From the NCBI GenBank assembly GCA_003576695.1, contig QOZQ01000002.1, positions 62,001 to 126,000 of the forward strand: a DNA stretch of 64,000 nucleotides, written 5' to 3'. Below the pieces are notes generated by a model. The model saw only the letters and a program-made list of their open reading frames with translations, made no database searches and was not told where the DNA came from. A program made the translations under genes and the position numbers. Below, piece after piece: positions 21,325 to 37,137 of this stretch (its first letter is position 1; each line of letters opens with the position of its first letter). The stretch is from Taklimakanibacter lacteus (GTDB taxonomy: Bacteria > Pseudomonadota > Alphaproteobacteria > Rhizobiales > Aestuariivirgaceae).

Positions 21325-21742
21325 TCTGGCGGAATGATCTCGCTTCGAAAGCGTCGCGAGCGACCTCGAAGTCGGCGCGGAATTCCCGTGTCCAGTCGAC
21401 GATCTCGCGGCTGAACCGCAGCAGCCTTTCGCCATGGCGGGTGAGCCTGTATTCCACCTTGGGCGGAACGACGGGATAGACTTTCCGCGTCACCAGCCCG
21501 TCGCGCTCCAGCTGCTTCAATGTCCGGGTCAGGACGCGCGCCGAGATCGGATGGATCTGTCCGATGCGGCGCTTCAGCTCGGTGAAGCGGATCGGGCCGT
21601 CATCGGTCATATGGAGGGTGAGCACGCTCCATCGGTCGCCGAGCCGCGACAGGACGGCGCGCGTGGCGACCGCGCCATCGCTCTCCATCGCTGGTTCCGC
21701 CAGCAGCCGTGAGGTCTCATGCATTGAATATGTCATGTTCAT
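21302..21742 (-). CDS. HxlR-family transcriptional regulator
   Basis: 146-residue winged-helix regulator. The HxlR pattern is clear: LGDRWSVLTLHMTDDGPIRF, ELKRRIGQIHPISARVLTRTLKQLERDGLV (DNA-recognition region, residues about 50-82), then VYPVVPPKVEYRLT for the wing. No cysteine is present, so the redox or aldehyde sensing by Cys reported for some relatives does not apply. Start ATG at 21742 with AGGA upstream; it overlaps the stop of the adenylate cyclase gene (ATGA) and is translationally coupled to it, an unusual pairing. Its 3' end overlaps the convergent TRAP permease gene by 23 bp. Confidence 0.88.
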   Translation of the reverse strand: MNMTYSMHETSRLLAEPAMESDGAVATRAVLSRLGDRWSVLTLHMTDDGPIRFTELKRRIGQIHPISARVLTRTLKQLERDGLVTRKVYPVVPPKVEYRLTRHGERLLRFSREIVDWTREFRADFEVARDAFEARSFRQIRPPAPR

Positions 21743-22515
21743 TTTCCTGCTGAATCGGGACGGATGATGGCCGGCCGCACATCGAGCGGCTTCGCCCGGC
21801 CCGAGAGGCTGACCGATATTGTTTTCGGGAAGTGATTGAGGATCGCCGTATCGCCGGCGACGCCCGCGATCAGGCGGAAGAGCTCGTCCGATATGACGAT
21901 GTCGGCGCCGAAGCGGCGCGTCTGGCGCTCGAGCCGGCTGGCGATATTGACGGTGTCGCCGAACACGCTCATGCCGCCGCCATGGCTGGCGAGCGTGCGG
22001 CCGAGCATCACCGGGCCGGCATGGATGCCGATCCCCACCTTGACCGGGCTGAGATGGCTCTGCCGGCGCCATTCGTTCCAGCTTTCCACTTCGCCCAGGA
22101 TCGTGAAGGCGCAGCGCAAAGCCCGGAAGGCCTGGACTTCGAGCGGAATGTTGCCTTTCCATACCGCCAGCAGCTCATCGCCGAAATGATCGACGATGGC
22201 GGCATTGTGCATGGTGGTCGCATGGCTGGTGTGGCGGTAGAAGTCGCTCAGCAGCAGATAGGCCTCTTCCGGCCCGAGTGTCTCGCAATGCTCGGTATAG
22301 CCGACAATATCGGCGAAGAGCGTTACCGCCGAGGTCATCTGCGGCGGGGCGAAGGGCTGCTGGCTGGCGCCTGGGGCGCCGGCCCATGGGCCCTGCGCAG
22401 CGGCGGCGCTGAAACGTTGCTGATACATGGATGATTGCCCGGTCATGTCTGTCACGGGTGCAATATGGGGCCGAGCGGTCGCGGAAGTTGGGCGGAACCG
22501 GGCCTTGTTTTCCAT
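21739..22515 (-). CDS. Adenylate/guanylate cyclase catalytic-domain protein (class III)
   Basis: 258-residue soluble protein. A Pro/Ala/Gln-rich N-terminal tail of about 60 residues precedes one class III cyclase domain. First metal aspartate in TLFADIVGYT, second in HFGDELLAVW. GIHAGPVMLG and GDTVNIASRLE follow, the latter with the transition-state Asn and Arg. The lysine usually found three residues before the GD of the second metal site is Asp here (VDHFGD), so adenine recognition or activity may be altered. No membrane segment, HAMP or receiver domain is attached; the input must be another protein or the tail. First gene of a two-gene unit with the HxlR regulator, divergent from a two-component system. 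Confidence 0.87.
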   Translation of the reverse strand: MENKARFRPTSATARPHIAPVTDMTGQSSMYQQRFSAAAAQGPWAGAPGASQQPFAPPQMTSAVTLFADIVGYTEHCETLGPEEAYLLLSDFYRHTSHATTMHNAAIVDHFGDELLAVWKGNIPLEVQAFRALRCAFTILGEVESWNEWRRQSHLSPVKVGIGIHAGPVMLGRTLASHGGGMSVFGDTVNIASRLERQTRRFGADIVISDELFRLIAGVAGDTAILNHFPKTISVSLSGRAKPLDVRPAIIRPDSAGK

Positions 22516-22608: not shown

Positions 22609-23328
22609 ATGGACTCGACACCACATATCGCTGTTGTCGACGATCACCGCGACATCCGTGATCTGGTGGGAAAATACCTCACCAAGCATGGTTACCGCGT
22701 CAGCATCGCGGAGAATGCCCAGGCCCTGCGCCGGCTTCTCGACCGCAGCGCCTTCGATCTCATCGTTCTCGACATCATGATGCCGGGCGAGGATGGGCTG
22801 TCCTTGTGCCGCCATGTGCGCAGCACCACCGAGATCCCCGTCATCCTGCTTACCGCCATGACCGAGGAGACCGACCGCATCATCGGCCTCGAGCTCGGTG
22901 CCGATGATTATCTCGGCAAGCCGTTCAATCCGCGCGAGCTTCTGGCCCGCATCAAGGCGGTGCTGCGCCGCGTCACCAGCCTGCCGCCCCAGCGCGGCCG
23001 CAGCAAGGCCAGGCAATTGCGCTTCGACCGCTGGAGTCTCGATGTCGGCCGGCGCGAGCTCATCGGCGCCGACGGCGTCGCGGTGCCGCTCTCGACCGCC
23101 GAATACCGCCTGCTCTGCGCTTTCCTCGATCATGCCGGGATGGTGCTGAGCCGCGACCAGCTCCTCGATCTCACCGTCGGGCGCACCGCCGAGCTCTTCG
23201 ACCGCAGCATCGACAATCAGGTGTCGCGCCTGCGCAAGAAGATCGAGGTCGATCCCAAGACGCCGGCGCTGATCAAGACCCATTGGGGCGGCGGCTATTG
23301 CTTCTCGGCCGAGGTGGCTCAGGCATGA
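22609..23328 (+). CDS. OmpR-family response regulator
   Basis: 239-residue DNA-binding response regulator. Receiver domain at residues 6-118: acidic pair Asp11-Asp12, phospho-acceptor Asp in VLDIMMPGEDG near residue 53, Thr in LLTAMTEE, Lys in YLGKPFNP. A linker (QRGRSKAR) leads to the winged-helix effector at about 135-235 (LSTAEYRLLCAFLDHAG, DRSIDNQVSRLRKKIE, KTHWGGGYCF). Its stop overlaps the kinase start by 4 bp (ATGA), so it forms a pair with the 23325 kinase. Target genes are not evident; the divergent cyclase/HxlR unit is a candidate. Confidence 0.93.
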   Translation: MDSTPHIAVVDDHRDIRDLVGKYLTKHGYRVSIAENAQALRRLLDRSAFDLIVLDIMMPGEDGLSLCRHVRSTTEIPVILLTAMTEETDRIIGLELGADDYLGKPFNPRELLARIKAVLRRVTSLPPQRGRSKARQLRFDRWSLDVGRRELIGADGVAVPLSTAEYRLLCAFLDHAGMVLSRDQLLDLTVGRTAELFDRSIDNQVSRLRKKIEVDPKTPALIKTHWGGGYCFSAEVAQA

Positions 23329-24764
23329 TGAAATTCTGGGACCGCAGCATCGCCACGCAGTTCATCGTCCTCATGCTGCTCGCTCTTCTCCTGTCGCAGG
23401 CGATCAGCTTCCTCATCTCCATGGATGAGCGCGGCAATGCGCTGCGCGAGGCCTATAAGGGAGAGTTCCTGAGCCGCGCCGAAGCGGTGGCCCGGCTCAT
23501 CGAGACGACGCCGCCGGCGCTCGAGAGTGACATCACGCGCGCCAACAACACGCTCAACACGCGCTATTGGGTGACGAGCGAAGGGCCGGCCGCCGATCCC
23601 GCCGCCTGGCGCCAGGCGGCCTGGTCCCGCCTTACCGAGCCGTTCTCCACCTCCGAATCGGCGGTCTTTATCGCCAAGGCGATCAAGCACGATCTCCAGC
23701 ACGACAATACCGGCGCCAGGCAAACGACATCGCCCTGGATGGACGTCTCGTCGGCGGAGTGGCACTATCCGCGGCCGGCGAAGTTCATCCGTCTCGACAA
23801 TTACTATGGCGTCGGTCTCGCCGTGCAGCTCGATCGCGGCGGCTGGCTCAATACGGCATTCGCCAAGCCCGCCATGAGCGGCTTCTGGACATCGCAATCG
23901 GTGCTCACCCTCATCGTCACCGCGCTTACCCTGTCGGCCATCATGATCTTCGCGGCGCGCGGCATAACCCGCCCCATGCGCCGCATGGCGGTTGCCGCGG
24001 AAGCCTTGGGCCGCGGCGAGGCGACGGCACCCTTGCCGGAGACCGGGCCCGAGGACATCCGCCATACCGCCCAGGCCTTCAACCGGATGCAGGAGCGCCT
24101 GCAGCGTTTCGTCGCCGACCGCACCCGCATGCTCGCCGCCATCGGCCATGATCTGCGCACCCCGATCACCTCCCTCAGATTGCGTGCCGAATTCGTCAGT
24201 GACAGCGAGGTGCGCGAGAAGATGATGAGCACCATCGACGAGATGCAGAAGATGACCGAGGCGACACTGAGCTTCGCGCGCGAGGAGGCGACCGTCGAGG
24301 AGACGCGCTCGATCGACCTGTCGGCGCTCGTCCAGAGCCTGTCCGATGACCTTGCCGATATGGGCCACGACGTCACCTTCTCCAACGGCCTCAAGATCCC
24401 CTATCGTTGCCGGGTGGAGGCGCTGAAGCGCGCCATCCGCAACATCATCGAGAACGCGGTACGCTATGGCCAGCGCGCCAGGGTCTCGCTCGCGCGCGGC
24501 GACGACAGCATCGAGATCATCATCGAGGATGATGGTCCGGGCATCCCGTCCAATCTCGCCGAGCAGGTCTTCGTTCCGTTCTTCCGGCTCGAGGATTCGC
24601 GCAGCCGCGAGACGGGCGGCGTAGGCCTCGGCCTCTCCATTGCCCGCAGCATCGTGCGCAATCATGGCGGCGACATCCGTTTGATCAACGGCGCCCCGGG
24701 CCTGCGCGCCATCATCACCCTGCCGGCGATCGACACCAGCAGCCGCCTTCCCGCCGCGGCTTAG
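23325..24764 (+). CDS. Sensor histidine kinase
   Basis: 479-residue membrane kinase partner of the regulator at 22609. First membrane segment about residues 10-32, a periplasmic sensor of about 155 residues, second segment near 195-215, HAMP (GITRPMRRMAVAAEALGRGE), then HisKA with the phospho-accepting His in AAIGHDLRTPITSLRL. The HATPase domain follows: N box NIIENAVRYG, G1 box EDDGPGIP, G2 box GGVGLGLSIARSIV. The sensor region (ARQTTSPWMDVSSAEWHYP part) matches no domain I recognise. Start ATG at 23325, overlapping the regulator stop; the next codon is also ATG. Confidence 0.92.
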   Translation: MMKFWDRSIATQFIVLMLLALLLSQAISFLISMDERGNALREAYKGEFLSRAEAVARLIETTPPALESDITRANNTLNTRYWVTSEGPAADPAAWRQAAWSRLTEPFSTSESAVFIAKAIKHDLQHDNTGARQTTSPWMDVSSAEWHYPRPAKFIRLDNYYGVGLAVQLDRGGWLNTAFAKPAMSGFWTSQSVLTLIVTALTLSAIMIFAARGITRPMRRMAVAAEALGRGEATAPLPETGPEDIRHTAQAFNRMQERLQRFVADRTRMLAAIGHDLRTPITSLRLRAEFVSDSEVREKMMSTIDEMQKMTEATLSFAREEATVEETRSIDLSALVQSLSDDLADMGHDVTFSNGLKIPYRCRVEALKRAIRNIIENAVRYGQRARVSLARGDDSIEIIIEDDGPGIPSNLAEQVFVPFFRLEDSRSRETGGVGLGLSIARSIVRNHGGDIRLINGAPGLRAIITLPAIDTSSRLPAAA

Positions 24765-24979: not shown

Positions 24980-25747
24980 TTAAGGCCTGACCCCCGGCGT
25001 CTCGATCGGAAGGCCTGTGGCGCGCGACATCAGATAGGCTTCGAGCGCGATCAGTTCGGGCGCACCATGGGCGAAGGGCTCGGCCCGCATGCCGGTCATG
25101 CAGTTGCGCAGGCGCCGCTGCAATGAGCCGAGCGTCTGCCATTCAAGCCGATAGAGCGGATAGGCGGTGGGATGCGCCTGCGGGATGATGCTGCCGCCCA
25201 GTCTCTGGCCGGCATGCCCCTCATGGCAGGCGGCACAGGAAAGGCCGAGCTGGCCGAGCCGGCGTTCGAACAGATCCCTGCCGCTCTTGCGGTAGGGTGT
25301 CAGCCTGTCATCTGCCGGCGGAGCGATCGGCATGCCGCGCGACTGATGCGCGACATAGGCGGTGAGCGCCAGGAGTTCCGGACTTTCAGCCGGAAAAGCT
25401 TGCGCCTTCTGCTGCGTCTGCCGGCACAGATTGATCCGCCCGGCAAGATCGATCGGCCGCCTTGTGCTTTCTTCGATCGCCGGATAACGGGTCGCGGTGC
25501 CGCGCATGCTCTGTGCCGCCGTGCCGTGGCAGCCGCTGCAGGCGATATTCGCCGCGCCGGCGGGTGCCTGCCACAGGCCTTCGCCCTCGGCAATGAAGAG
25601 CATGCCGGGATTGCTCATGTCGTCCTCCTGCATGGCACGCGTCTCGGGCGTCATATAGTCGAGGCCGGAGCGTTTCTCCTGCGCGACAAGCCCGCCGGCG
25701 CCGAGCAGAGCCAGCACCGCCGCGGCGAGACCGTGCTTCAGCGCCAT
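24980..25747 (-). CDS. soxA: SoxA-like dihaem cytochrome c
   Basis: Periplasmic sulfur-oxidation cytochrome, 255 residues with signal peptide (about residues 1-22). Two haem-binding motifs: CSGCH (70-74) and CAACH (171-175). Cys108 (NLCR) is at the usual axial-ligand site, and Cys216 (RNCMTGMRAEP) is the active-site cysteine that carries the sulfane sulfur in SoxA. With SoxX it should form the SoxXA enzyme, which attaches thiosulfate oxidatively to the SoxY carrier. Last gene of the operon; its start overlaps the soxZ stop by one base (TGATG). Family assignment is firm; a role in complete thiosulfate oxidation is doubtful because soxB and soxCD are absent here. Confidence 0.93.
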   Translation of the reverse strand: MALKHGLAAAVLALLGAGGLVAQEKRSGLDYMTPETRAMQEDDMSNPGMLFIAEGEGLWQAPAGAANIACSGCHGTAAQSMRGTATRYPAIEESTRRPIDLAGRINLCRQTQQKAQAFPAESPELLALTAYVAHQSRGMPIAPPADDRLTPYRKSGRDLFERRLGQLGLSCAACHEGHAGQRLGGSIIPQAHPTAYPLYRLEWQTLGSLQRRLRNCMTGMRAEPFAHGAPELIALEAYLMSRATGLPIETPGVRP

Positions 25748-26067
25748 CAGACGACCGTGATCTCGGCGGTGGCGCGCTGTATGGTCCCCTGATCGTCGGT
25801 CCAGGCGAAGGTCAGGACGCCGCTTGTCGTCGCGACGGTGCTGAAGGCGATGAAGGGATTGGCCGCCATCGCCGGATAGAAGTCGGCCGCGAAGATCTCG
25901 ACATCATCATAGAGACACTGGAAACGATGGATGATGTTGCGCGGCACGGCAGCGCCCTGCGCGTCTCGCCGGTGCCCCGTCTCCATGACATGGGCGATCA
26001 TTGCCCTGATCTCGATGACTTCGCCCTGTTGTGCCTGCTTCGGCGTATTGATGAGGGCCCGCGTCAC
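25747..26067 (-). CDS. soxZ: SoxZ-like sulfur carrier subunit
   Basis: 106-residue immunoglobulin-fold protein that normally dimerises with SoxY. Recognisable SoxZ pattern: ALINTPKQAQQGEVIEIRAMIAH at the start with METGHRRD following, IIHRFQCLYDDVEIF in the middle, and SGVLTFAWTDDQGT near the end. No signal peptide, as usual for SoxZ, which is carried out by its partner. Here the SoxY partner also lacks a signal, so the location of the dimer is uncertain. The start overlaps the soxY stop by 4 bp (ATGA), consistent with equal synthesis. Confidence 0.93.
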   Translation of the reverse strand: MTRALINTPKQAQQGEVIEIRAMIAHVMETGHRRDAQGAAVPRNIIHRFQCLYDDVEIFAADFYPAMAANPFIAFSTVATTSGVLTFAWTDDQGTIQRATAEITVV

Positions 26068-26444
26068 AGCAAGTCCTCGATGCAGGCGGCGAGCGTCACG
26101 ATCACTTGCGCTTCGCCGAACCAGAGGCTGCCGTCGCTCATTTCGGCGACGGCCATGACGGTCTGCGAGCTGGCGAGGCGGATGCGGGTCGATATCCTGG
26201 CCCGCCCGGCGCGCGGCCCGAGATGAAAGACCGCGATATCGGCTTGCGGGTTCTTCTCATTGAAGAGGCCGATGCGCCGGACATGGTCGTTGGCGCTCAT
26301 CGGGCTTTCGACCGTGACCGTGATGCCGACCGCATTGCCATTCTCTACCAGCGGCGGAACATCGAGCTTGACCCGGCCGGGCCGGACGTCACGATTGCCG
26401 GTAAAGCCGCGCACTGCTTCCGCCAGCGTCGGACGTGTTGTCAT
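26064..26444 (-). CDS. soxY: SoxY-like sulfur carrier with atypical C terminus and no signal peptide
   Basis: 126 residues. The body matches SoxY well: LDVPPLVENGNAVGITVTVESPM, HVRRIGLFNEKNP and STRIRLASSQTVMAVAEMSDG. In characterised SoxY proteins the chain ends in GGCGG, where the Cys carries the sulfur substrate. Here the end is TLAACIEDLL, so Cys121 is kept but the flexible glycines are gone and five residues follow it. SoxY normally carries a Tat signal; this one begins MTTRPTLAEAVRG with none, and no in-frame upstream start is available. The ATG has a fair ribosome site (AAGGAGTGAGAG). A diverged or differently located carrier is likely. Confidence 0.9.
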   Translation of the reverse strand: MTTRPTLAEAVRGFTGNRDVRPGRVKLDVPPLVENGNAVGITVTVESPMSANDHVRRIGLFNEKNPQADIAVFHLGPRAGRARISTRIRLASSQTVMAVAEMSDGSLWFGEAQVIVTLAACIEDLL

Positions 26445-26447
26445 CTC

Positions 26448-26882
26448 TCACTCCTTGAGGGTCACGAGGAAAGCAACGATATCCTCGATGTCTTCTGCCC
26501 CGAGCACCGGCCTGCCGCGCCAGGCCTCAGCGGTCCGCGGATGATCGCTGATGCGGTAATAGGAGGGCATGATGGTCGAAGGACTGATATGCGCCATGTC
26601 GACGATGCGCAGCCGGATCTGTCCTTCCGAAAGCCTGCCGCCCACGCCGCTGAGATCGGGCGCCAGCGTGCCCTGCGCATGGGGCTCGGGCACAGGCGCC
26701 TGGTGGCACAGGAGGCACAGGCTGGCTTGGCGGTTGGCCAGCAGTGTCCGCCCGCGTGATGCATCCCCCGGGTGACCGGTGAGCGGCTGGACGATGGCAT
26801 CGCCGGCGATCGAATAGGAACGCAGCGGCTCGGCGGCGGCCGGCGCCGCCAGGAGGACCACGACGATGAGGGCAAGCCTCAT
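26448..26882 (-). CDS. soxX: SoxX-like monohaem cytochrome c
   Basis: 144-residue periplasmic cytochrome, the electron-accepting partner of SoxA. Signal peptide about residues 1-17 (ending PAAA). Haem motif CLLCH at 56-60; probable Met105 axial ligand in IMPSYYR, the normal SoxX site. The DLSGVGGRLSEGQIRLRIVDM and EDIEDIVAFLVTL stretches are typical. The start overlaps the flavoprotein stop by 4 bp (ATGA). The encoded order (flavoprotein, X, Y, Z, A) keeps the core of thiosulfate-oxidation operons. Confidence 0.92.
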   Translation of the reverse strand: MRLALIVVVLLAAPAAAEPLRSYSIAGDAIVQPLTGHPGDASRGRTLLANRQASLCLLCHQAPVPEPHAQGTLAPDLSGVGGRLSEGQIRLRIVDMAHISPSTIMPSYYRISDHPRTAEAWRGRPVLGAEDIEDIVAFLVTLKE

Positions 26883-28180
26883 CCGAAGACTTCCCGTGTG
26901 ATGGTCTGGAACCAGGCTTGCGCATAAGTGGCTTCCGCTTCACGCTGCGCCGCCGGCGCCTCGAGCGGGCTGACGCCGCCCGCTTCCTTGATCTCGGTCA
27001 GCAGCCCGTCGCGCGGCGCATAGACGCCGGCGACCGATATGCCGTAATCGGGTGCGACCAGGCTGTAGCAGGTATTGATGAGCTTCACCTCGCGCGGGTC
27101 TTCGCCGCGGATGAGGCTCGCGATCATATCGGCGCAGACCTTCGCTTGCGCATTGGCGGCGAAAGCGGATTTCGGCATCGCCCCGGCGATCGCCGCATCG
27201 CCGATGACATGGATATTCGGCACAAGCTTCGATTCGAATGTATGGGGATCGATCGGGCACCAGCCCGTCTGGTCGGCGACGCCTGCGGCGATGGCGACGG
27301 CGCCGGCCCTTTGCGGCGGGATGACATTGGCGACATCGGCGAGATGGCTGCCGAATTCGGTGACGAGCGTCCGGGTCTTGGCATCGATCTCGATGACGCG
27401 TCCGCCTCCCGACAAGGGCACCCATTCGATGAGGCCGGGATAGAGTGTCTTCCAGGCCGCCTCGAACAGGCGTTGCTTGGAGAAGGTATCCTTGGCATCG
27501 AGCAGGATCAGCTTCGAGCGTGGCTTTTTCGTCTTGAGATAATATGCGATGAGGCTTGCCCGCTCATAGGGGCCGGGCGGACAGCGGAACGGATTGGCGG
27601 GGGCCGACAGCACCACGACGCCGCCATCGGCCATGGCCTCGAGCTGGCGGCGCAGCAGGAGCGTCTGCGCGCCCGCCTTCCAGGCATGCGGCATGATCTC
27701 GGCGGCGGTCTGGTCATAGCCGGGCAGCGCATCGAATCTGATGTCGATGCCGGGAGCGAGGACGAGACGCTGGTAGTCGAGGCGCGCGCCGTCGGCGAAA
27801 TGCACCTGGCGGGCCTCCGCCTCGATCGCCACGACGATCTGCCCGGCGATGTCGACGCCGGCCTGCTTCACGCCGTCATAGCCGAAATATTGCGCTTCGA
27901 TCGGTCGCAGGCCCGCGATCACCGCATTGCTGAACGGGCAGGCGGTGAAGCGGGCATTGGGCTCGACCAGCGTGACGGCGATGGTGCCGTCCGCGGCCTT
28001 GAGGCGGCGCGCGCAGGTGGCGCCGGCAAAGCCGCCGCCGATGACGATGACATGCGCCTTGGCCTGGCCGAGCACGGGCGGCGCGGCAAGGGTCGCTATT
28101 CCGGCAAGGGCGCTTTTAAGGATTGCCCGCCGGCTGGCCTTGCGCCGCGTACCACTGCGCGATGGCATTGATCTCTTCAT
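26879..28180 (-). CDS. fccB: Sulfide dehydrogenase flavoprotein (FccB/SoxF type)
   Basis: 433-residue FAD-binding flavoprotein of flavocytochrome c. Twin-arginine signal SRRAILKSALAG near residues 16-27 sends it folded to the periplasm. FAD motif VIVIGGGFAGATCARRL at about 44-60; CPFSNAVIAG carries one of the redox cysteines and INTCYSLV the other, as in FccB and SoxF. It would oxidise sulfide to sulfane sulfur and pass electrons to the cytochrome encoded just upstream. Two starts are close: ATG at 28180 and ATG at 28168, the latter preceded by GAAGAG. Either overlaps the cytochrome gene by more than 50 bp, an unusually long overlap. Confidence 0.9.
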   Translation of the reverse strand: MKRSMPSRSGTRRKASRRAILKSALAGIATLAAPPVLGQAKAHVIVIGGGFAGATCARRLKAADGTIAVTLVEPNARFTACPFSNAVIAGLRPIEAQYFGYDGVKQAGVDIAGQIVVAIEAEARQVHFADGARLDYQRLVLAPGIDIRFDALPGYDQTAAEIMPHAWKAGAQTLLLRRQLEAMADGGVVVLSAPANPFRCPPGPYERASLIAYYLKTKKPRSKLILLDAKDTFSKQRLFEAAWKTLYPGLIEWVPLSGGGRVIEIDAKTRTLVTEFGSHLADVANVIPPQRAGAVAIAAGVADQTGWCPIDPHTFESKLVPNIHVIGDAAIAGAMPKSAFAANAQAKVCADMIASLIRGEDPREVKLINTCYSLVAPDYGISVAGVYAPRDGLLTEIKEAGGVSPLEAPAAQREAEATYAQAWFQTITREVFG

Positions 28181-28433
28181 CGGAATAACCCTTTGCGATG
28201 CGGTCCATCACGGTCGCCGTGCGCTCGCCGGCACGGAAGGCCGCCATCGCCGTGACGATCTCGCCGGCCGGGCGGCCGATCAGGCCCGGCACCGGCCCGT
28301 CGTTGACCGGTGCATGGCAGCCGGAGCAGGCGGCAGCACTTGAGGGCTGCGCTGCCGCCTGGATCGGGACCGCGAGCAGGGCCACGACAATCATGCCGTG
28401 GCTGATCCCACGATAGGACCAGGGCCTGGTCAT
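28116..28433 (-). CDS. Monohaem cytochrome c (FccA/SoxE type)
   Basis: 105-residue exported cytochrome. Signal peptide through about residue 28 (IQAAAQ). Haem motif CSGCH at 36-40. TVMDRIAKGYSDEEINAIAQWYA holds the likely Met ligand (about residue 76) and matches the FccA/SoxE class. One haem only. Its start overlaps the hydroxylase gene by 4 bp (ATGA) and its end overlaps the flavoprotein start. It may therefore be the cytochrome subunit of the sulfide dehydrogenase, the electron acceptor of the molybdenum hydroxylase, or shared by both; the order does not decide. Confidence 0.88.
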   Translation of the reverse strand: MTRPWSYRGISHGMIVVALLAVPIQAAAQPSSAAACSGCHAPVNDGPVPGLIGRPAGEIVTAMAAFRAGERTATVMDRIAKGYSDEEINAIAQWYAAQGQPAGNP

Positions 28434-30598
28434 GCCAGGCTGTGGTTCTTGAGCGGCATGGTGCGGATGCGCTTGCCGGTCGCGGCGAAGAGTGCATTGA
28501 GCACCGCCGGCGCCGCCACCGCGATGGTCGGCTCGCCGACGCCGCCCCAGAAGCCGCCCGAAGGCAGAACGATCGTTTCGACGGGCGGCATGTCTGCCAT
28601 GCGCATCACTTCATAGGTGTCGAAATTCTCCTGCTCCATGCGGCCTTGGGCGACGACGCATTCGCCATAGAGGCTGGCGGACAGGCCATAGGCGAAGGAG
28701 CCTTCGACCTGCCTTTCGATCTGCGCCGGGTTGACGGCATGGCCCGGATCGGTCGCCGCCACGATGCGATGGATCTTGAGCCGGCCGTCGGTGACCGAGA
28801 CTTCCGCCGCCGCCGCGACATAGCTGGCGAAGCCCATGATCTGGGCGAGGCCGCGATGCACGCCTTGCGGCGCCGGCTTGTCCCAGCCGATGCGCTCGGC
28901 CACCGCATTCAGCACGGCCAGATGCTTGGGATGCTTGGCCATGAGCTTGCGCCGGAAAGCGAGCGGATCCTGGCCCGCCGCATGGGCGAGCTCGTCCATG
29001 AAGCATTCGACATAAAGCGCGTTCTGGTTGAGATTGACGCCGCGCCAGAAGCCCGGCGGCACCGGCGGGTTGCGCATCGCATGATCGACCAGGAGATTGT
29101 CGATCGAATAGCCGAACTCGTTCTCGGGCCCCGTGGCGAGGAGGCCCTGGAAGACGACGGGATCCTTGCCGTTCTGCATGCCGTCCGGCCTGACCGCGGC
29201 GAGGATCGACTGGCCCGATATGCGCATATGGAGCGCCGTCAGGTTGTTCTGCTCGTCGAGCACGCCGGTGAGCTTGCATTGCGTGGTCGGGTGATAGGCG
29301 CCATGCAGCATGTCCTCCTCGCGCGACCAGATGAGCTTCACCGGTATGCCCGGCAGCTCCTTGGCGATCAGCACGGCCTGGCGCACATAATCCTGGAAGG
29401 CGCCGCGCCGGCCGAAGCCGCCACCGAGATGGATCTTGTGGATGTCGCATTGCTGCGCCGGCAGGCCGGCTGCTTCCGCCGCCGCGGCGAGGCTGCCTTC
29501 GCCGTTCTGCGTCGGCACCCACACCTCGCATTTTTCCGCCGTCCAGACCGCTGTCGCGTTCATCGGCTCCATCGTGGCGTGATTCTGATAGGGATAGGCA
29601 TAGGTCGCGGTCACTTGCCTGCCGGGACCCGCAAGCGCCTTGTGCGCATCGCCATTCTCATTGCCGATGAATGCCTCTTGCGCCTCGAGCCCCTGCGCCA
29701 GCATGTCGGCGATCGCGGCGCTGGTGAGGTCCTTGTTGGGACCGTCATCCCAGGTGATCGGCAAGGCATCGAGCGCCGTCTTGGCGCGCCACCATGTATC
29801 GGCGACGACCGCAACTGTTGCCTCATCCACTTGCACGACCTTCCTGACGCCCGGCATGGCGGTGATGGCCGACGCGTCGAAGCTCCTGATCTTGCCGCCG
29901 AATACCGGGCAGGCCTTGATCGCGGCATTGAGCATGCCGGGCTGTTGCAGGTCGATGCCATAGACCTGCTTGCCGGTGAGCTTGTCGGCGGTGTCAAGTC
30001 GCGGCAGCGGCTTGCCGGCGATGGTCCAGTCCTTCGGGTCCTTGAGCGTGACATCGGCGGGCGGCGCCATCTGCGCCGCGGCCGCCGTGACCTTGCCATA
30101 GGTCGTGCTGCGCCCGCTGGCGCCGTGGCTGATGACACCCTTGGCGACGGTGCATTCCGCGGGTGCTACCTTCCACTCCGCGGCGGCGGCGGCGACCAGC
30201 ATGGCGCGCGCGGTGGCGCCGCCCTTGCGCACATATTCATGCGATTCACGGATGCCGCGGCTGCCGCCGGTCGAGAAGCTGCCCCATACGCGGTTGCGCG
30301 CCAGATTGGCGGCGGGTGTCGGATATTCGGTGGTGACTCTTGCCCAGTCGCATTCGAGCTCCTCGGCGACGAGCTGGGCGAGGCCGGTCAGCGTGCCCTG
30401 GCCCATCTCGGAGCGGGCGATGCGGATGATCACGGTCTCGTCGGGCTTGACGACCACCCAGGCATTGATCTCGGGCGCGGTCTCCTCGGCGGCGGCGCGG
30501 CCGGGCAGCGGCACATGGAAGCCGAGCGTCAGTCCGCCCATGGCGGCGAGCGAGCCGGCGATGAAATGGCGGCGTGAAACGGCGGGAACGAATGTCAT
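28430..30598 (-). CDS. iorB: Molybdenum hydroxylase large subunit (IorB type, periplasmic)
   Basis: 722-residue molybdopterin-binding subunit of the isoquinoline 1-oxidoreductase / aldehyde oxidoreductase branch of the xanthine oxidase family. A Tat signal (VSRRHFIAGSLAAMGG, residues 7-22) marks export. Cofactor and substrate regions visible: RSEMGQGTLTGLAQLVAEEL, FGRRGAFQDYVRQA after HLGGG, and GFWGGVGEPTIAVAAPA with the catalytic Glu (GVGE) near the C terminus. The ATG at 30598 is chosen because GAGGAGG lies just upstream; an ATG at 30616 precedes it in frame. Partner is the 2Fe-2S protein at 30609. Its physical coupling to sulfur-oxidation genes is the unusual point. Substrate unknown (N-heterocycle or aldehyde by family). 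Confidence 0.9.
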   Translation of the reverse strand: MTFVPAVSRRHFIAGSLAAMGGLTLGFHVPLPGRAAAEETAPEINAWVVVKPDETVIIRIARSEMGQGTLTGLAQLVAEELECDWARVTTEYPTPAANLARNRVWGSFSTGGSRGIRESHEYVRKGGATARAMLVAAAAAEWKVAPAECTVAKGVISHGASGRSTTYGKVTAAAAQMAPPADVTLKDPKDWTIAGKPLPRLDTADKLTGKQVYGIDLQQPGMLNAAIKACPVFGGKIRSFDASAITAMPGVRKVVQVDEATVAVVADTWWRAKTALDALPITWDDGPNKDLTSAAIADMLAQGLEAQEAFIGNENGDAHKALAGPGRQVTATYAYPYQNHATMEPMNATAVWTAEKCEVWVPTQNGEGSLAAAAEAAGLPAQQCDIHKIHLGGGFGRRGAFQDYVRQAVLIAKELPGIPVKLIWSREEDMLHGAYHPTTQCKLTGVLDEQNNLTALHMRISGQSILAAVRPDGMQNGKDPVVFQGLLATGPENEFGYSIDNLLVDHAMRNPPVPPGFWRGVNLNQNALYVECFMDELAHAAGQDPLAFRRKLMAKHPKHLAVLNAVAERIGWDKPAPQGVHRGLAQIMGFASYVAAAAEVSVTDGRLKIHRIVAATDPGHAVNPAQIERQVEGSFAYGLSASLYGECVVAQGRMEQENFDTYEVMRMADMPPVETIVLPSGGFWGGVGEPTIAVAAPAVLNALFAATGKRIRTMPLKNHSLA

Positions 30599-30608
30599 GG
30601 ATGCCTCC

Positions 30609-31079
30609 TCAGCCATTGCTTGCGGGTGTTTCGCCGGATGCGGCGAGCTTGATTGCCGCGCGCACGCGGTTATAGGTGCCGCATCGGCAGATATTGGTCA
30701 TCTCGGCATCGATATCGGCATCGCTGGGCTTGGGATTCTGGGCGATGAGCGCCGCCGCCGCCATGATCATGCCGGCCTGGCAATAGCCGCATTGCGGAAC
30801 GTCGAGCGCCAACCAGGCTCTCTGCACCGGATGCGATCCATCGGGCGACAGGCCTTCGATGGTCACGATCTGCTGTTCCGGCGTGAAGGCGCTCACCGGC
30901 ATGGAGCAGGAGCGTGTCGCGACACCGTCGACATGCACCGTGCAGGATCCGCATTGCGCGATGCCGCAGCCATATTTGGTTCCGGTGAGGCCGGCCTGCT
31001 CGCGCAAGGCCCAGAGAAGCGGCGTGTCGGGATCGACATCGATGTCGCGTGTCGTGCCATTGATCGTCAGTCGGGCCAT
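30609..31079 (-). CDS. iorA: Molybdenum hydroxylase 2Fe-2S subunit (IorA type)
   Basis: 156-residue two-cluster iron-sulfur protein. The plant-ferredoxin-like cluster uses Cys38, Cys43, Cys46 and Cys58 ([10 protein letters not shown] and RSC). The second cluster uses the two cysteines of [10 protein letters not shown] and the two of NICRCGTY. It transfers electrons from the molybdenum site of the large subunit to an acceptor, probably a cytochrome c since no FAD subunit is encoded. No signal peptide of its own, as usual: such subunits are carried through Tat by the large partner. First gene of the eight-gene minus-strand operon; the promoter must lie in 31080-31336. Confidence 0.92.
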
Positions 31080-31336
31080 CGGGGTCTCCTGAGATGTTGG
31101 ATAGGATGGGGTGCAGCGTGCTGCATGGATGCGAGGCTATGAGCCGCCTGTCGCAGAATCTTGGTCGCGACATTGCCAATTTGTAATGGGCTGTCGCTCC
31201 TGAGCGGGGCCGACACAGCTTGATACAATTTTCTTGGGCGAGCAGACCGCCATGTCGCTTACCTGTGCATCGGACGGCGCTTCAGACGCGCGTGCCCTCG
31301 CGCGCGTGCGGTGGATATTTTTCCGGAGATCACGAG

Positions 31337-31726
31337 ATGAGTTATGTTTCTGCTGCCGCGCTTGCTTTAACGCTGGCCTTCTACGGTGCTTTCGCCACGG
31401 CGGCGCAGGCGCAGGAGGCCACAGAGGGCGAGCGCCTGTTCCGTCAGCGCTGCGCCACATGCCATGCGATCGAAGCGGGACAGAGCCGGGCCGGCCCGCA
31501 TCTCGACGGGCTCATCGGCCGTCGTGCCGGCAGTGTCGAGGGCGCGCGCTATTCCCGCGCTGTGCAGGAATCGGGCATCACCTGGGACGAGGCATCGCTC
31601 GACAATTTCCTCGCCAATCCGCGCAAGGCGGTGGCCGGAACCACGATGATGATCGGCGTGCCCAATGCCGACCAGCGCACAGCGATCATCGCTTATCTCA
31701 AATCATTGCCGGCTGGCGCGAACTGA
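31337..31726 (+). CDS. Class I cytochrome c (c2/c550 type)
   Basis: 129-residue soluble periplasmic cytochrome. Signal peptide about residues 1-25 (ending AAQAQ). Haem motif CATCH at 39-43; GPHLDGLIGRRAGS is the usual loop; TTMMIGVPN near 103-111 holds the axial Met; TAIIAYLKSL is the C-terminal helix. Start ATG at 31337 because the signal peptide begins there, although the frame is open further upstream. Divergent from the iorAB/sox operon, so a shared regulatory region and a role as its terminal electron carrier are plausible. The 3' end overlaps the convergent gene by 29 bp. Confidence 0.9.
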   Translation: MSYVSAAALALTLAFYGAFATAAQAQEATEGERLFRQRCATCHAIEAGQSRAGPHLDGLIGRRAGSVEGARYSRAVQESGITWDEASLDNFLANPRKAVAGTTMMIGVPNADQRTAIIAYLKSLPAGAN

Positions 31727-32966
31727 CCAGCTCGGGCTGCCTGGCGACGCGCTCGATGCGCGCCAGGGCTTGTGTGATTTCGTCATCCGATATCGTCAGC
31801 GGCGGCGAGAAGCCGACACTGGCTGGACCCTTTCCCGTCGTCGAGAGTCCTTCCTGCCAGAATGCCCTGACCAGCGCATCGATGAAGTCAACACCCGCCG
31901 CCATGCCGCAATGGTCCGGCCGGAAATCAAGCGCCAGCAGCAGGCCCTTGCCGCGCCCCCCAGCCAGGAACGGATGCTCGGCGGCGAGTCGCGCAATCCT
32001 GGACATGACATGGGCGCCAAGTTCCTGGGCCCGCGCGGTGAGCCCTTCGCTCTCGATGATCTCGATCGTCGTCAAGGCGGCGCGCGTGGTGAGCGGGTTC
32101 TTCTCATGCGTATAGTGGCCGAGATCGAGATCGGGCGCGACATCGAGGCGGGCATCGGCGATGACGGCAGCGATGGGGACGATGCCGCCGCCAAGCGCCT
32201 TGCCGAGCACCACCGCGTCGGGAACCACGCCGAAATGCTCGAAGGCGAAGAAACGTCCGGTCTTGCCGAGGCCGGAAGGTATCTCATCGAAGATGAGGAG
32301 CACGCCATGCTCGGCGCAGAGAAGCTTGACTTGCCGCCAGAAATCGTCGGGCGGCACATGGCAGTTCGACCGGATCGGCTCGGCGATGAGGGCGTCGATG
32401 CGGTCGGGATTTTTGGCCAGCACGGAGCGCAACTCGGCCAGCGTCGCTTGCGCGCCGCCCGCCTGCCAATAGCCTGGAATATGGTGACGGCCCGGCAGGA
32501 AAGGACCGAGCCGCTTGTCGGGCATGGCGCGCGATAGTCCAAAGGCGCCGAAGCCATGGCCATGATAGGAGCCTTCGAAGGAGATCGTCTCATGCCGGCC
32601 CGTTGCGGTGCGCGCAAGCTTGAGTGCGATCTCGATCGCATCCGATCCGCCCGTGGCGAACAGGACCTTGGCGCGGTTGCCCGGCCATTTGGCGAGGAGC
32701 TTTTCCGCCAGCAGCACGGCGGGCGTATTGGTGAACCGGCGCGGCGCGAAAGGCAGCTCGTCGAGCTGCCGCTTCAGGGCCGCGGTGAGCGTCGGATGCC
32801 CGTAGCCCAGATGATGCGCGGTATTGCCATGCAGATCGATGAAGCGGCGCCCCTCGACATCCTCGAGCCATGCGCCTTGCGCCGCGACGAGCGCGAAAGG
32901 ACAGGGCGAGGAACCCTCCTGGTGGAAGAAAGCGGCAGAGTCGCGGGCGATGAGGCTGTGCTTCAT
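31698..32966 (-). CDS. pbfA: Class III PLP enzyme, PbfA-like (1-hydroxy-2-aminoethylphosphonate ammonia-lyase)
   Basis: 422-residue fold-type I PLP enzyme of the class III aminotransferase family. Signatures: ATGGSDAIEIALKLART, SYHGHGFG, LLIFDEIPSGLGKTG and VLGKALGGGI with the PLP lysine. Close association with a 2-aminoethylphosphonate-type ABC transporter and LysR gene points to PbfA, which releases ammonia from (R)-1-hydroxy-2-aminoethylphosphonate to give phosphonoacetaldehyde. The alternative is a true transaminase acting on aminoethylphosphonate. No phosphonatase (phnX) or phnYA is visible, so later steps must be encoded elsewhere. The start overlaps the permease stop by 4 bp (ATGA). 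Confidence 0.72.
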   Translation of the reverse strand: MKHSLIARDSAAFFHQEGSSPCPFALVAAQGAWLEDVEGRRFIDLHGNTAHHLGYGHPTLTAALKRQLDELPFAPRRFTNTPAVLLAEKLLAKWPGNRAKVLFATGGSDAIEIALKLARTATGRHETISFEGSYHGHGFGAFGLSRAMPDKRLGPFLPGRHHIPGYWQAGGAQATLAELRSVLAKNPDRIDALIAEPIRSNCHVPPDDFWRQVKLLCAEHGVLLIFDEIPSGLGKTGRFFAFEHFGVVPDAVVLGKALGGGIVPIAAVIADARLDVAPDLDLGHYTHEKNPLTTRAALTTIEIIESEGLTARAQELGAHVMSRIARLAAEHPFLAGGRGKGLLLALDFRPDHCGMAAGVDFIDALVRAFWQEGLSTTGKGPASVGFSPPLTISDDEITQALARIERVARQPELVSSRQPAMI

Positions 32967-35088
32967 GGCAATGTCTTTCCGTTGGCGAGGCCGGTAGCCG
33001 CGATCGACGCGCCGCGCGGCCATCTGAGCGTCCAGCGCGCGCCGGCCGGCTGGTCGATCAGCCGGATCAGTCCCATCGCAGTGAGCGCGATGGCGAGCAG
33101 GATGACGCTCTTGGCGCCGGCATAGCCGAAGTCGCCCGATGTCGCATGGTTGAAGATGGTGACCGAGGCGAGCTTATGGTCGCCCGACACCAGGAAGATC
33201 ACCGAGGAGAGCGTGGTGAGGCCGTCGACAAAGACATAGAGCGTTCCGAGCAGCAGGGCCGGGCGCAGCATCGGCAAGGTGACATGGACGAAGCGGCGGG
33301 TCAGGCCGGCGCCGAGGCTTTCCGCTGCTTCATCGACCGCCGGATTGAGCCGCTGCAGGGCGGCGCGCGCCGCCAGCACGCCGACGAACAGGTTGGCGAA
33401 CAGGATATTGATGATGAGGATGGCGGAAGTCCCGGTGAGCGACAGGGATTTGATGCCGAAGGGCACGTTGAAGGCGATGATATAGCCGATGCCGAAGATG
33501 ATGCCGGGCAGGATCGCCGGGATGAGTGCCAGGAACACGATGAGATTGGCGCCCGGCGGCTTCAGCCGCTCGACCACGAAGGCGATGACGATGCCGAGGA
33601 GGCCGCCGATCGGTGCGGCGGTGCCGGCAATGGCGAGACTGCTCCAGATCGTGTCGAGGCCACGGTCGGAACTGCCATAGCCTGAGCCGGCAAGGCCGAC
33701 ATCGACGCCGGCGGAGGTGAAATAGCCGAGCGTGAAGCTCCAGTCGGCACCCCACACCCGGGTGACGGCGCCGAGCGCCATCGTCCCATAGATGATGAGA
33801 ACGAAGCCACAGGTGGCGGCGGCCAGCGTGCCGAGCGCCAGGCGCCAGGCTTGTGGCATGGCAAGCTCGCTGGCGCTGCCGGCCTCGCCGGTCGCATAGG
33901 CCTTGCGCCGGCCGATCCGCTCGAGGCCGAGATAGAGAAGCAGCGGCGGCAGGAGCAGCCAGCAGCACAACGCGGCGGCGAGCGGCGTGTTCTGATAGGC
34001 GGTGATCTGGTCGTAGATGACCTCGGCGAGAACCGGGACGTCCTGCCACAGGAGCGATGGATTGGCGAAATCCGTGAGGCTTATGATGAAGACGAGTGCC
34101 ACGGCGCGCTTCACTCCCGGCCAGGCGAGCGGCAAGGTCACATGTAGGAAGATCGCGGCATGGCTGGCGCCCAGCATCGCGGCGGCCTCATCCACCCGCC
34201 CGCTTTGCCGGCGCATCACATTGTCGAGGATGATGAGGCTCGCCGGCAGCGCGGAGAGGGTCTGCGCCAGCACGGTGCCGATGAAGCCATAGGCATTGGT
34301 TTGATCGGCATCGATCAGGCCGAGAGTCTGGTCGAGGAAATTGTGGGTGACGAGGCCGCGGCGTCCGAACAGCATGAGGATGGCGGTGGCGATGAGGACG
34401 GGCGGGGTGACGAGCGGTGTGAGCAGGATCGCGCGCGTCGCCGCCGGCGCCCGCAGCCCGCCGCAATTGATCGCATAAGCGAGGAGCAGAGCCAGCATGA
34501 CGGTGAGGGGCGTGGTGGCGGCGGCAAGCGTCAGGCTGTTGAGGCTGGCCCCGATCAGATGGCGGTCGTGGAACACGGCGAGGAAATTGTCGAGCCCGTA
34601 GCGGTCGTCGGCGCCGCTGCGCAATTGATCGAAGCGCGCCTGCCCGATCCGGTCCCTGACCTTGAAGGCGAGGGGAATGCGTTTGTGCAGCATGACATGC
34701 GCGATCGGGATTTCCGCGGTCACTTTCTCCCGCTCGGGCGCCGGCAGTGCCGCAAGCGCGCGGGCGGTGGCCTCGGCCTGCTCCGAATAGGCGGCCTTGC
34801 GGTCCCAGCTGACGGCAAGGTCGGCGAGCGTGAAGGCGGCGGCCGTCGCATCGACGCGCTCCGCCGATGTTGCGGCATCCGTCCATTGGCGCATGATCCT
34901 GGCGCTTTCATCGGGCGGGAGTTCGGCCAGCGCTTCCTCGGTGACCGCCTTGAGGCGCGGCAGGGAGAGTGACCCGCGAATGACGAAGCTTTCGACCAGC
35001 ATGGCGCCGATCGGATAAGCGATGAAGAGGGTGAGCCCCGCCAGCACCGCAAGCGTGACGATGATCTTCGGCAGATCCCGGAACGCCA

Positions 35089-35089
<1 letters not shown>
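32963..35089 (-). CDS. Fused two-domain ABC permease (2-aminoethylphosphonate type)
   Basis: 708-residue inner-membrane protein with two permease halves joined, as in Fe3+/AEP-type importers. First half: membrane segment at 8-30, then an unusually long polar stretch (about residues 35-175, rich in Ala/Glu/Arg) before the core TM domain with EAA-like loop DEAAAMLGASHAAIFLHVTLP. Second half begins near residue 410, with EAA loop DEAAESLGAGLTRRFVHVTLP late. The two loops should contact the ATPase encoded at 35089. Its ATG shares one base with the ATPase stop (TAATG). Substrate class inferred from TIGR03262-like organisation and the PbfA-like neighbour. Confidence 0.82.
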
Positions 35090-36156
<1,067 letters not shown>

Positions 36157-36174
36157 GGCCCGCGCCTCGCTCGT

Positions 36175-37137
36175 CTATTGCTTGAGGATGCGGCTGGCAA
36201 ATTCCTTGCGGAACTCGTTGATGTCGACCGGCCGGCGCATCTTCCATAGAGTGACTTGCTTGAGGTCGACAAGGCCATGTCCCGGCACCGCGGTGGCGCC
36301 GACCACCTTGCCGAGCACCGCGGCGGCGTCATCGCTCGCCATGAAGTCGAGGAAGACCTTGGCTTCGGCGGGATTGGGTCCGCCCGCCACCAGGCCGCCG
36401 CCTTCCGACACATTGGGCGTGATGCGGCCATAGACGATGTCGACCGGCTTGCCCGATGATTTGGTCTCGAAGCAGGTTGTGTCGAAGGTGAGGCCGATCG
36501 CCACTTCGCCCGCCGCCGCGAGCTGGGCGCCGCCCGAGCCGCCGTCGGAATACTGATAGACATTCTCGTTGAGATTCTCGACGAAGGGCCAGCCGAACGC
36601 ATCGACGAAGGTGGTGAGGATGGCGCCGCCGGTGCCCGACTTCAGCGGCGAAGGCAGCGAGATCTCCTTGGCATAGGCAGGCTTGATCAGGTCTTCCCAG
36701 GTCGCGGGCATCGGCAGGTCCTTCTGCGCCAGCCTGTCCTTGTTCACCACCATGCACATCGTGGTCGCGAAATACTTGTTGTAGAAGCCGTCGGGATCGC
36801 GGAAATCCGTGGTGATCTTGGAATCCTTCGGCTCATAGGGCTCGAACACGCCCGCCTGCTTCAGCTGGTCAAGGGCGACATTGTTGACGAGATAGACGAT
36901 ATCGGCTTGCGGCTTGCCCTTCTCGGCAATGGCGCGTTCGGTGATCGGCCCGGTCGAGCCGGAAACGAATTTCACCTTGATGTCGGGATGCTTCTTCTCG
37001 AAGGCCGCGACGATCGCCGTATTCACATTGTCCGACGCATTATAGATGGTGATCTCGCCGGCGAGTGCCGCGCCGGCTCCCAGAGCGAGCGCGAGGGCGG
37101 CCGTTGCTGAGCGGATAAGGGACTTGGCTGTCGTCAT
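36175..37137 (-). CDS. ABC transporter substrate-binding protein (2-aminoethylphosphonate type)
   Basis: 320-residue periplasmic binding protein of the iron/AEP/thiamine class. Signal peptide about 1-26 (GAALAGEI). Class features: ITIYNASDNVNTAIVAAFEKKHPDIKV (shown in part) at the start, VYLVNNVALDQLKQAG, and GGLVAGGPNPAEAKVFLDFM near 230-250. First gene of the transporter operon, divergent from a LysR gene 101 bp away. The class binds ferric ion, spermidine, thiamine or aminophosphonates; the PbfA-like lyase at the operon end favours a 2-aminoethylphosphonate-type ligand. Confidence 0.85.
   Translation of the reverse strand: MTTAKSLIRSATAALALALGAGAALAGEITIYNASDNVNTAIVAAFEKKHPDIKVKFVSGSTGPITERAIAEKGKPQADIVYLVNNVALDQLKQAGVFEPYEPKDSKITTDFRDPDGFYNKYFATTMCMVVNKDRLAQKDLPMPATWEDLIKPAYAKEISLPSPLKSGTGGAILTTFVDAFGWPFVENLNENVYQYSDGGSGGAQLAAAGEVAIGLTFDTTCFETKSSGKPVDIVYGRITPNVSEGGGLVAGGPNPAEAKVFLDFMASDDAAAVLGKVVGATAVPGHGLVDLKQVTLWKMRRPVDINEFRKEFASRILKQ

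Follow-up and report, generated by a model that had tools for sequence, protein, structure and literature searches.

An operon in Taklimakanibacter lacteus linking a molybdenum hydroxylase to a Sox protein set without SoxB

Results

The window analysed here, a 64-kb stretch of the Taklimakanibacter lacteus genome (contig QOZQ01000002.1, positions 62,001 to 126,000), holds on its minus strand, at 24980-31079, an operon of eight genes, in which the two subunits of a molybdenum hydroxylase (IorA and IorB) are followed by a small cytochrome c, a sulfide dehydrogenase flavoprotein (FccB) and the sulfur-oxidation (Sox) proteins SoxX, SoxY, SoxZ and SoxA. As listed in Table 1, these genes and a divergent cytochrome c gene lie where a first-pass annotation, made from the sequence alone, had placed them, and their names were backed by Pfam and NCBIfam searches. 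The tight packing that it described was also found, although its "mostly 4-bp overlaps" applies to only three of the seven junctions (iorB/cytochrome c, fccB/soxX and soxY/soxZ). From the coordinates, iorA and iorB overlap by 8 bp and soxZ and soxA by 1 bp; the cytochrome c gene overlaps fccB by about 53-65 bp, the exact length being set by which fccB start is used; and soxX and soxY are separated by 3 nt, with no larger gap anywhere in the operon. For the small cytochrome c the Pfam match to Cytochrome_CBB3 was weak (22.8 bits, under the cut-off of 27), and an open reading frame at 28177-28497, considered as an alternative for this protein, was rejected because it lies in a different frame.

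Table 1. Genes of the operon and associated features, with positions in the 64-kb window
Feature	Position	Strand	Basis
iorA, [2Fe-2S] subunit of molybdenum hydroxylase, 156 aa	30609..31079	-	Pfam Fer2 and Fer2_2
iorB, molybdenum-cofactor subunit with twin-arginine (Tat) leader, 728 aa	28430..30616	-	Pfam MoCoBD_1 and MoCoBD_2
small one-haem cytochrome c at the FccA position, 105 aa	28116..28433	-	CxxCH in sequence
fccB/soxF-like sulfide dehydrogenase flavoprotein	26879..28180, alternative start 28168	-	Pfam FCSD_central and FCSD-flav_bind
soxX, one-haem cytochrome c	26448..26882	-	TIGR04485, 63.5 bits (cut-off 61); no Pfam match
soxY, AACIE-arm type, C-terminus VTLAACIEDLL, without Tat leader	26064..26444	-	TIGR04487 above cut-off
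soxZ	25747..26067	-	TIGR04490 above cut-off
soxA, two-haem SoxA	24980..25747	-	TIGR04484 above cut-off
divergent cytochrome c	31337..31726	+	PF00034
OmpR-type response regulator, beyond soxA	22609..23328	+	Pfam; 73-79% identical copies near iorAB in compared loci L051, L126, L204 and L205
sensor histidine kinase, beyond soxA	23283..24764	+	Pfam; 55-58% identical copies in L051, L126 and L204

When the whole T. lacteus genome (5.78 Mb in 24 contigs, 99.7% complete) was searched, the best match to the SoxB profile was a partial one that scored 104 bits, below the cut-off of 550, and partial SoxB-like matches were also present in 10 of 14 control genomes. SoxC gave no match at E ≤ 0.001; SoxD was not searched for. 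For SoxB and SoxC, their absence from the operon, reported in the first-pass annotation together with that of SoxD, thus extends to the genome as searched. The genome contains one SoxA, one SoxY and one FccB, the FccB search otherwise giving weak partial matches.

The SoxY of the operon scored 200.7 bits against TIGR04487 ('SoxY-related AACIE arm protein', cut-off 172) and is a member of that family, while it fell under the cut-off for true SoxY (92.7 vs 125 bits); its tail reads AACIEDLL, not GGCGG. In canonical Sox systems, SoxB acts on the GGCGG arm of SoxY. We collected 112 distinct SoxYs from the compared loci and set 4 canonical ones apart. All 108 non-canonical SoxYs carry an [A/G/P/S]AC arm, which continues as C-x-[E/D] in 105 of them. 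Structure prediction placed the arm as a loose C-terminal tail on the SoxY fold. The acidic arm residue would argue against an anionic cargo such as thiosulfate. The first-pass annotation had overlooked this SoxY type, as well as the loss of the Tat leader described below; its suggestion that SoxYZ might serve as a carrier for a new chemistry agrees with an arm altered throughout the clade.

Other parts of the set are conserved. In SoxA, both CxxCH haem motifs and the cysteines C108 and C216 were invariant in 18 of 18 alignment rows, the extra cysteines being presumably ligands, so that SoxXA has the haems and cysteine ligand of canonical Sox. In IorB, R15-R16 and E695 of the GVGEP motif were invariant in 20 of 20 rows, and we take this glutamate to be the catalytic residue. 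Together with the MoCoBD domains and the Fer2/Fer2_2 subunit, the conserved glutamate places IorAB in the xanthine oxidase family. As the SoxA cysteines and haem motifs and the GVGEP glutamate are kept, the loading chemistry (SoxA) and the molybdenum chemistry (IorB) look intact, while the arm that SoxB would target is altered.

To find how far the arrangement extends, a one-genome-per-species collection was scanned. This returned 521 stretches with SoxY relatives, canonical ones possibly among them, and the best 80 by similarity to the SoxY query were examined; these include close relatives and hence are not independent events. At all 64 loci whose upstream sequence reached 5.3 kb or more, iorA and iorB stood ahead of soxXYZ in the order iorA-iorB-(fccB)-soxX-Y-Z(-A), fccB being present at 54. 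Of the other 16 loci, with less than 5.3 kb upstream, iorB was seen in 10 and 6 were undecidable. No soxB or soxC match was found in any of the 80 stretches. A survey of neighbours for a universal extra gene that would name the substrate found none, neighbours being lineage-specific in a crude gene calling based on third-position GC content (GC3). The first-pass annotation had argued that the genes were not chance neighbours, and had named a gene order unique to this strain, or soxB and soxCD elsewhere in the genome combined with a separate promoter and unrelated induction of iorAB, as observations that would speak against a single pathway. The order is far more regular than chance would give, widespread among the genomes compared and found across many families, so that we rejected one peculiar to T. 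lacteus, and neither soxB nor soxC turned up elsewhere in its genome.

Most of the 80 loci carry alphaproteobacterial labels (Bradyrhizobium, Reyranella, Microvirga and others), four records are labelled Rokuibacteriota, and the operon is plasmid-borne in Methylobacterium sp. NMS14P and Neorhizobium galegae. The plasmid copies and the Rokuibacteriota-labelled records indicate that the operon probably moves between lineages. Within the family of T. lacteus, SoxY above the TIGR04487 cut-off occurred in T. lacteus alone (1 of 69 genomes), which fits transfer.

We then asked whether the two halves are inherited together. Among 385 sampled genomes of the class, 21 had a SoxY above the TIGR04487 cut-off, and all 21 also had an IorB of at least 60% identity, vs at least 10 of the 364 others (Fisher test, 2e-27, uncorrected for kinship). 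IorB genomes thus number at least 31 of 385, with two candidates scored per genome and with G122 and G147 counted on partial IorB matches. At 18 of the 21, iorAB (or iorB at a contig end) lay at the same locus as soxY, and in G093 and G071 the locus was cut by contig ends. Over 81 loci, distance matrices correlated with that of IorB at 0.83 for SoxZ, 0.80 for IorA, 0.77 for SoxA and 0.73 for SoxY. Since in the sampled genomes the AACIE SoxY was never found without this IorB, and IorB was sometimes found without SoxY, the Sox part appears to depend on IorAB.

SoxB was above its cut-off in 8 of the 43 genomes tested, including 2 of the 21 with AACIE SoxY, and SoxC in 1 of the 21. By contig positions, SoxB lay near a SoxY not adjoining IorAB in all 8 SoxB genomes, and the SoxYs of the three SoxB loci that were read end in GGCGG. 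These results bear on an explanation that we rank as least likely and consider very improbable, namely ordinary thiosulfate oxidation with an unrecognised hydrolase in the place of SoxB. The intact catalytic residues of SoxXA and the 104-bit partial match in the T. lacteus genome would agree with it, and the available part of PMC11237559 cites a report that SoxH replaces SoxB in one strain of Sulfurimonas. However, the GGCGG arm is lost, SoxB where it exists sits with another SoxY, the 80 stretches hold neither soxB nor soxC, and partial matches of the SoxB-like kind are shared by control genomes. We also observed a second SoxB-less kind of locus (L234, L235, L237 and L238), with soxXYZA and a SoxY ending in GACS, three of the four having divergent fccAB; iorAB was absent from the stretches read and a SoxB match from their genomes.

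The nearest solved structure to IorB is an aldehyde dehydrogenase of Gluconobacter (8gy3_C, about 28% identity), and no NCBIfam model scored above its cut-off for IorA or IorB. In a FastTree phylogeny with local support values only, T. lacteus IorB grouped as sister to IorBs of Rhizobium and Sinorhizobium plasmids, whose loci also have this response regulator, histidine kinase and cytochrome c, but no sox genes within the 22 kb read (other replicons lying outside this reading). As these sox-less copies nest inside the sox-linked clade in that tree, we rejected the view that the sox genes are recent passengers of a sox-less IorAB, and loss of sox is likelier than recent gain. More distant IorBs (35-52% identity) also adjoin SoxYZ, at L215-217, L229 and L230-L233, so that the pairing of IorAB with SoxYZ extends beyond one clade. 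At L229 (G091:C24) a distant iorBA pair (35%) is divergent from soxYZ, and the SoxY tail reads GACEGLGFTY. L230 and L233 (G078 and G365) have an operon iorAB-soxYZ-fccAB-soxXA, with SoxY extended about 33 and 18 residues past a GACVE(D/E) arm; in G078 the iorAB pair is doubled in tandem.

Two further explanations meet at this evidence. The operon may encode two independent periplasmic oxidations that share the cytochrome c and the regulator, IorAB clearing aldehydes or N-heterocycles and FccAB with SoxXA/YZ clearing sulfide, co-regulated because both compounds occur together and with no common substrate. On the rhizobial plasmids, IorAB is accompanied by this response regulator, kinase and cytochrome c but by no sox genes nearby; this speaks for the reading, as do the optional fccB and the aldehyde dehydrogenase likeness of IorB; we nonetheless think it unlikely, since none of the 21 genomes has AACIE SoxY without this IorB, an asymmetry unexpected under independence, and since the arm change is clade-wide. 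Alternatively, the Sox proteins might serve IorAB itself, as a guard against reactive sulfur or in the upkeep of its Mo=S ligand. The one-way dependence of AACIE SoxY on IorAB and the several IorB clades paired with SoxYZ would be accounted for, and the available parts of PMC12997753 and PMC11237559 offer a precedent in SoxYZ-like proteins linked to alcohol dehydrogenases. Rhizobial IorABs of the same clade do without sox genes nearby, however, and a complete SoxXA with its catalytic cysteine kept exceeds a guard's needs, which makes this role decidedly unlikely.

T. lacteus differs from the other loci in its SoxY. A twin-basic hydrophobic leader was present in 106 of the 108 distinct non-canonical SoxYs, and the SoxY of T. 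lacteus lacks it; the one further leaderless SoxY is a sequence cut by a contig end. A single codon stands between the in-frame soxX stop and the soxY ATG, and the distance from the soxX stop to the arm cysteine codon is 363 nt; across 110 locus rows, some of them duplicates, the median is 458. Because this SoxY is without an export signal, the SoxYZ step is perhaps impaired in T. lacteus, and the Sox half may have lost, or may be losing, its usual role. We regard it as possible, if still tentative, that in this strain the Sox half is decaying and SoxYZ is cytoplasmic, with IorAB, the cytochrome c and the two-component system as the working part; this is compatible with any reading of the operon elsewhere. 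Besides the missing leader and the shortened interval, the sister grouping of IorB with sox-less rhizobial IorBs (again FastTree only) supports decay, and the Sox proteins of T. lacteus rank 5-11 among 81 loci in divergence, more diverged than IorA (32) and IorB (26). Against decay, the remaining frames are all open, and near-invariant columns are nearly all kept (SoxY 19/19, SoxZ 18/18, SoxA 45/45, SoxX 23/24).

Around the operon, homologues of the divergent cytochrome c were found near iorAB in L204, L205 and L051, and adjoining soxA in L207. A gene with an adenylate/guanylate cyclase domain (21739-22515, minus strand) adjoins the two-component pair, and in Reyranella soli (L126) a gene 40% identical to it has a similar setting next to iorA. 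Directly upstream of the operon, at 31698-37137 on the minus strand, are genes for a transporter of the ATP-binding cassette type resembling those for 2-aminoethylphosphonate (substrate-binding protein, ATPase and fused permease) and for a PbfA-like lyase, all scoring under their models' cut-offs. In L072 (the same as L037), ATPase, permease and lyase of about 60% identity are likewise upstream of iorAB, and a PbfA-like gene is also present in L038. As they recur in these loci and not generally, these genes were rejected as regular operon partners. Scans of the locus for promoter consensus and terminators gave matches at the level of shuffled sequence.

Discussion

Our preferred reading, to which we give a probability of about 0.4, is that the operon encodes a conserved periplasmic variant of Sox without SoxB and SoxCD, dedicated to a molybdenum hydroxylase and oxidising a neutral sulfur substrate. 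The one cysteine in the SoxYZ arm would receive this substrate, sulfide or an organic thiol, through oxidative coupling by SoxXA. The carbon moiety of the substrate would be oxidised by IorAB, which resembles aldehyde dehydrogenases; this could happen on the SoxY-tethered form, SoxY-S-S-CH2R then yielding an aldehyde or acid, or once the moiety has been released as an aldehyde. FccAB, which is SoxF-like, would then take off the leftover sulfane sulfur and reset the carrier, and electrons from all steps would pass to the divergent cytochrome c, the likely electron acceptor of the operon enzymes. The aldehyde-dehydrogenase-like fold of IorB favours this division of labour, with thiol or sulfide loading on the one side and oxidation of the carbon part by IorAB on the other. 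In a more specific form, the AAC-x-E/D arm would make SoxYZ a covalent carrier of organic thiols, with SoxXA forming SoxY-S-S-R, IorAB hydroxylating the tethered carbon, which would depart as an aldehyde or acid, and FccAB taking the persulfide sulfur; this version we hold to be rather unlikely. Of the one pathway through IorAB and Sox proposed by the first-pass annotation, the coupling, conservation and co-inheritance are borne out, the passage of one substrate through both being a supposition.

Several observations weigh against the preferred reading. Of the at least 31 IorB genomes, 5 have a SoxB gene at another locus, and help in trans would be possible there. At 10 of 64 loci fccB is missing, and G091 (1 of 21) has fccAB-soxXYZA separate from iorAB. 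In G066 (L209, 5849-9913) the operon reads iorA-iorB-soxX-soxA without soxY or soxZ, and the genome as a whole gave zero SoxY matches. Members of the same IorB clade stand on Sinorhizobium and Rhizobium plasmids with a sox-less iorAB, and copies of it in L210-L213 stand apart from sox genes, the genomes having SoxY elsewhere. Judged by these gene contents, no single component of the operon is indispensable. For T. lacteus itself, the SoxY sequence predicts that the usual Tat route is closed to it. Finally, methanethiol oxidase co-occurs only weakly with IorB. The T. lacteus genome encodes a full-length SBP56 protein of this family (PF05694; G000:C21:143009-144349, 686 bits), and PF05694 was above its cut-off in 7 of 31 IorB genomes (a minimum number) vs 23 of 354 others (p 0.006, uncorrected), or, at 500 bits or more, in 5 IorB genomes vs 15 others (p 0.016, uncorrected). 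An obligatory partnership with methanethiol oxidase is not supported by this weak co-occurrence; given the weak enrichment, methanethiol is a candidate substrate and no more.

The operon resembles several known systems without coinciding with any of them. With canonical Sox (soxXYZABCD with soxEF) it shares SoxXA, SoxYZ and a SoxF-like FccB; it differs in being without SoxB or SoxC, in the AAC-x-E/D arm that replaces GGCGG, and in including a molybdenum enzyme of the xanthine oxidase family. Canonical Sox is periplasmic and has cytochrome c as acceptor, and we hold the same for the operon. Relative to flavocytochrome c sulfide dehydrogenase (FccAB), the FccB of the operon is strongly homologous over its full length (E 2.5e-142 to the solved structure 5n1t), with FCSD central and flavin-binding domains, but its partner cytochrome is small. 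With the membrane-bound aldehyde dehydrogenase of Gluconobacter and IorAB-type hydroxylases, IorB shares the fold of the molybdenum subunit, the twin-arginine leader and the GVGEP glutamate, whereas it belongs to a separate clade whose members mostly adjoin sox genes. The SoxY carries the arm of the TIGR04487 family, although the T. lacteus copy is leaderless and the name of the model states neither function nor partners; a Tat leader is a trait of the clade and lies outside what defines the model.

A SoxYZ-like carrier tied to an enzyme that oxidises carbon compounds is also known as the quinoprotein-dehydrogenase-associated carrier TIGR04557, which, as far as its description was available, differs in being a fused protein with an enzyme dependent on pyrroloquinoline quinone (PQQ) and a SoxH neighbour; SoxY and SoxZ of the operon score far below its cut-off of 140 bits (62.5 and 37.7). 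In the accessible parts of PMC12997753 and PMC11237559, such a fused carrier beside PQQ dehydrogenases is suggested to guard PQQ. Among the literature examined, the nearest precedent is a cluster in SAR324, where the available part of PMC4782131 describes a sulfide dehydrogenase flavoprotein (fcc) with soxYZ at its flank, the bins yielding no other sox genes, and suggests a different, novel mechanism. That cluster is without soxXA and is known from draft metagenome bins; an isoquinoline 1-oxidoreductase appears in the same excerpt, with no link to fcc-soxYZ stated there. In Bradyrhizobium diazoefficiens soxY1 is essential for thiosulfate oxidation and soxY2, which may or may not have the AACIE arm, is not, according to the part of PMC5748708 at hand. 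Recombinant Paracoccus Sox proteins showed a potential to lower the CH3SH of P. gingivalis, CH3SH-dependent reduction of cytochrome c being undemonstrated in the available portion of PMC5371076. From its accessible text, a 2024 phylogeny of SoxY dropped sequences without the GGC motif (PMC11237559), a filter that would leave out the AACIE-arm clade. Among the matches listed from the open-licence literature, no title or abstract opening described the operon.

In summary, the operon appears to be a new form of the Sox system, built on a SoxY type that is named but uncharacterised. The combination of iorAB with a Sox set without SoxB points to an unstudied oxidation of sulfur-containing compounds, most likely organic ones. 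Genome surveys that equate soxXYZA with 'thiosulfate oxidation' would misannotate loci of the AACIE type. If the carrier-tethered oxidation of C-S compounds without SoxB is true, it would be a periplasmic thiol-carrier analogue of acyl-carrier chemistry, and if the coupling of the two halves is true, many alphaproteobacteria would possess an unrecognised oxidation route for organosulfur compounds.

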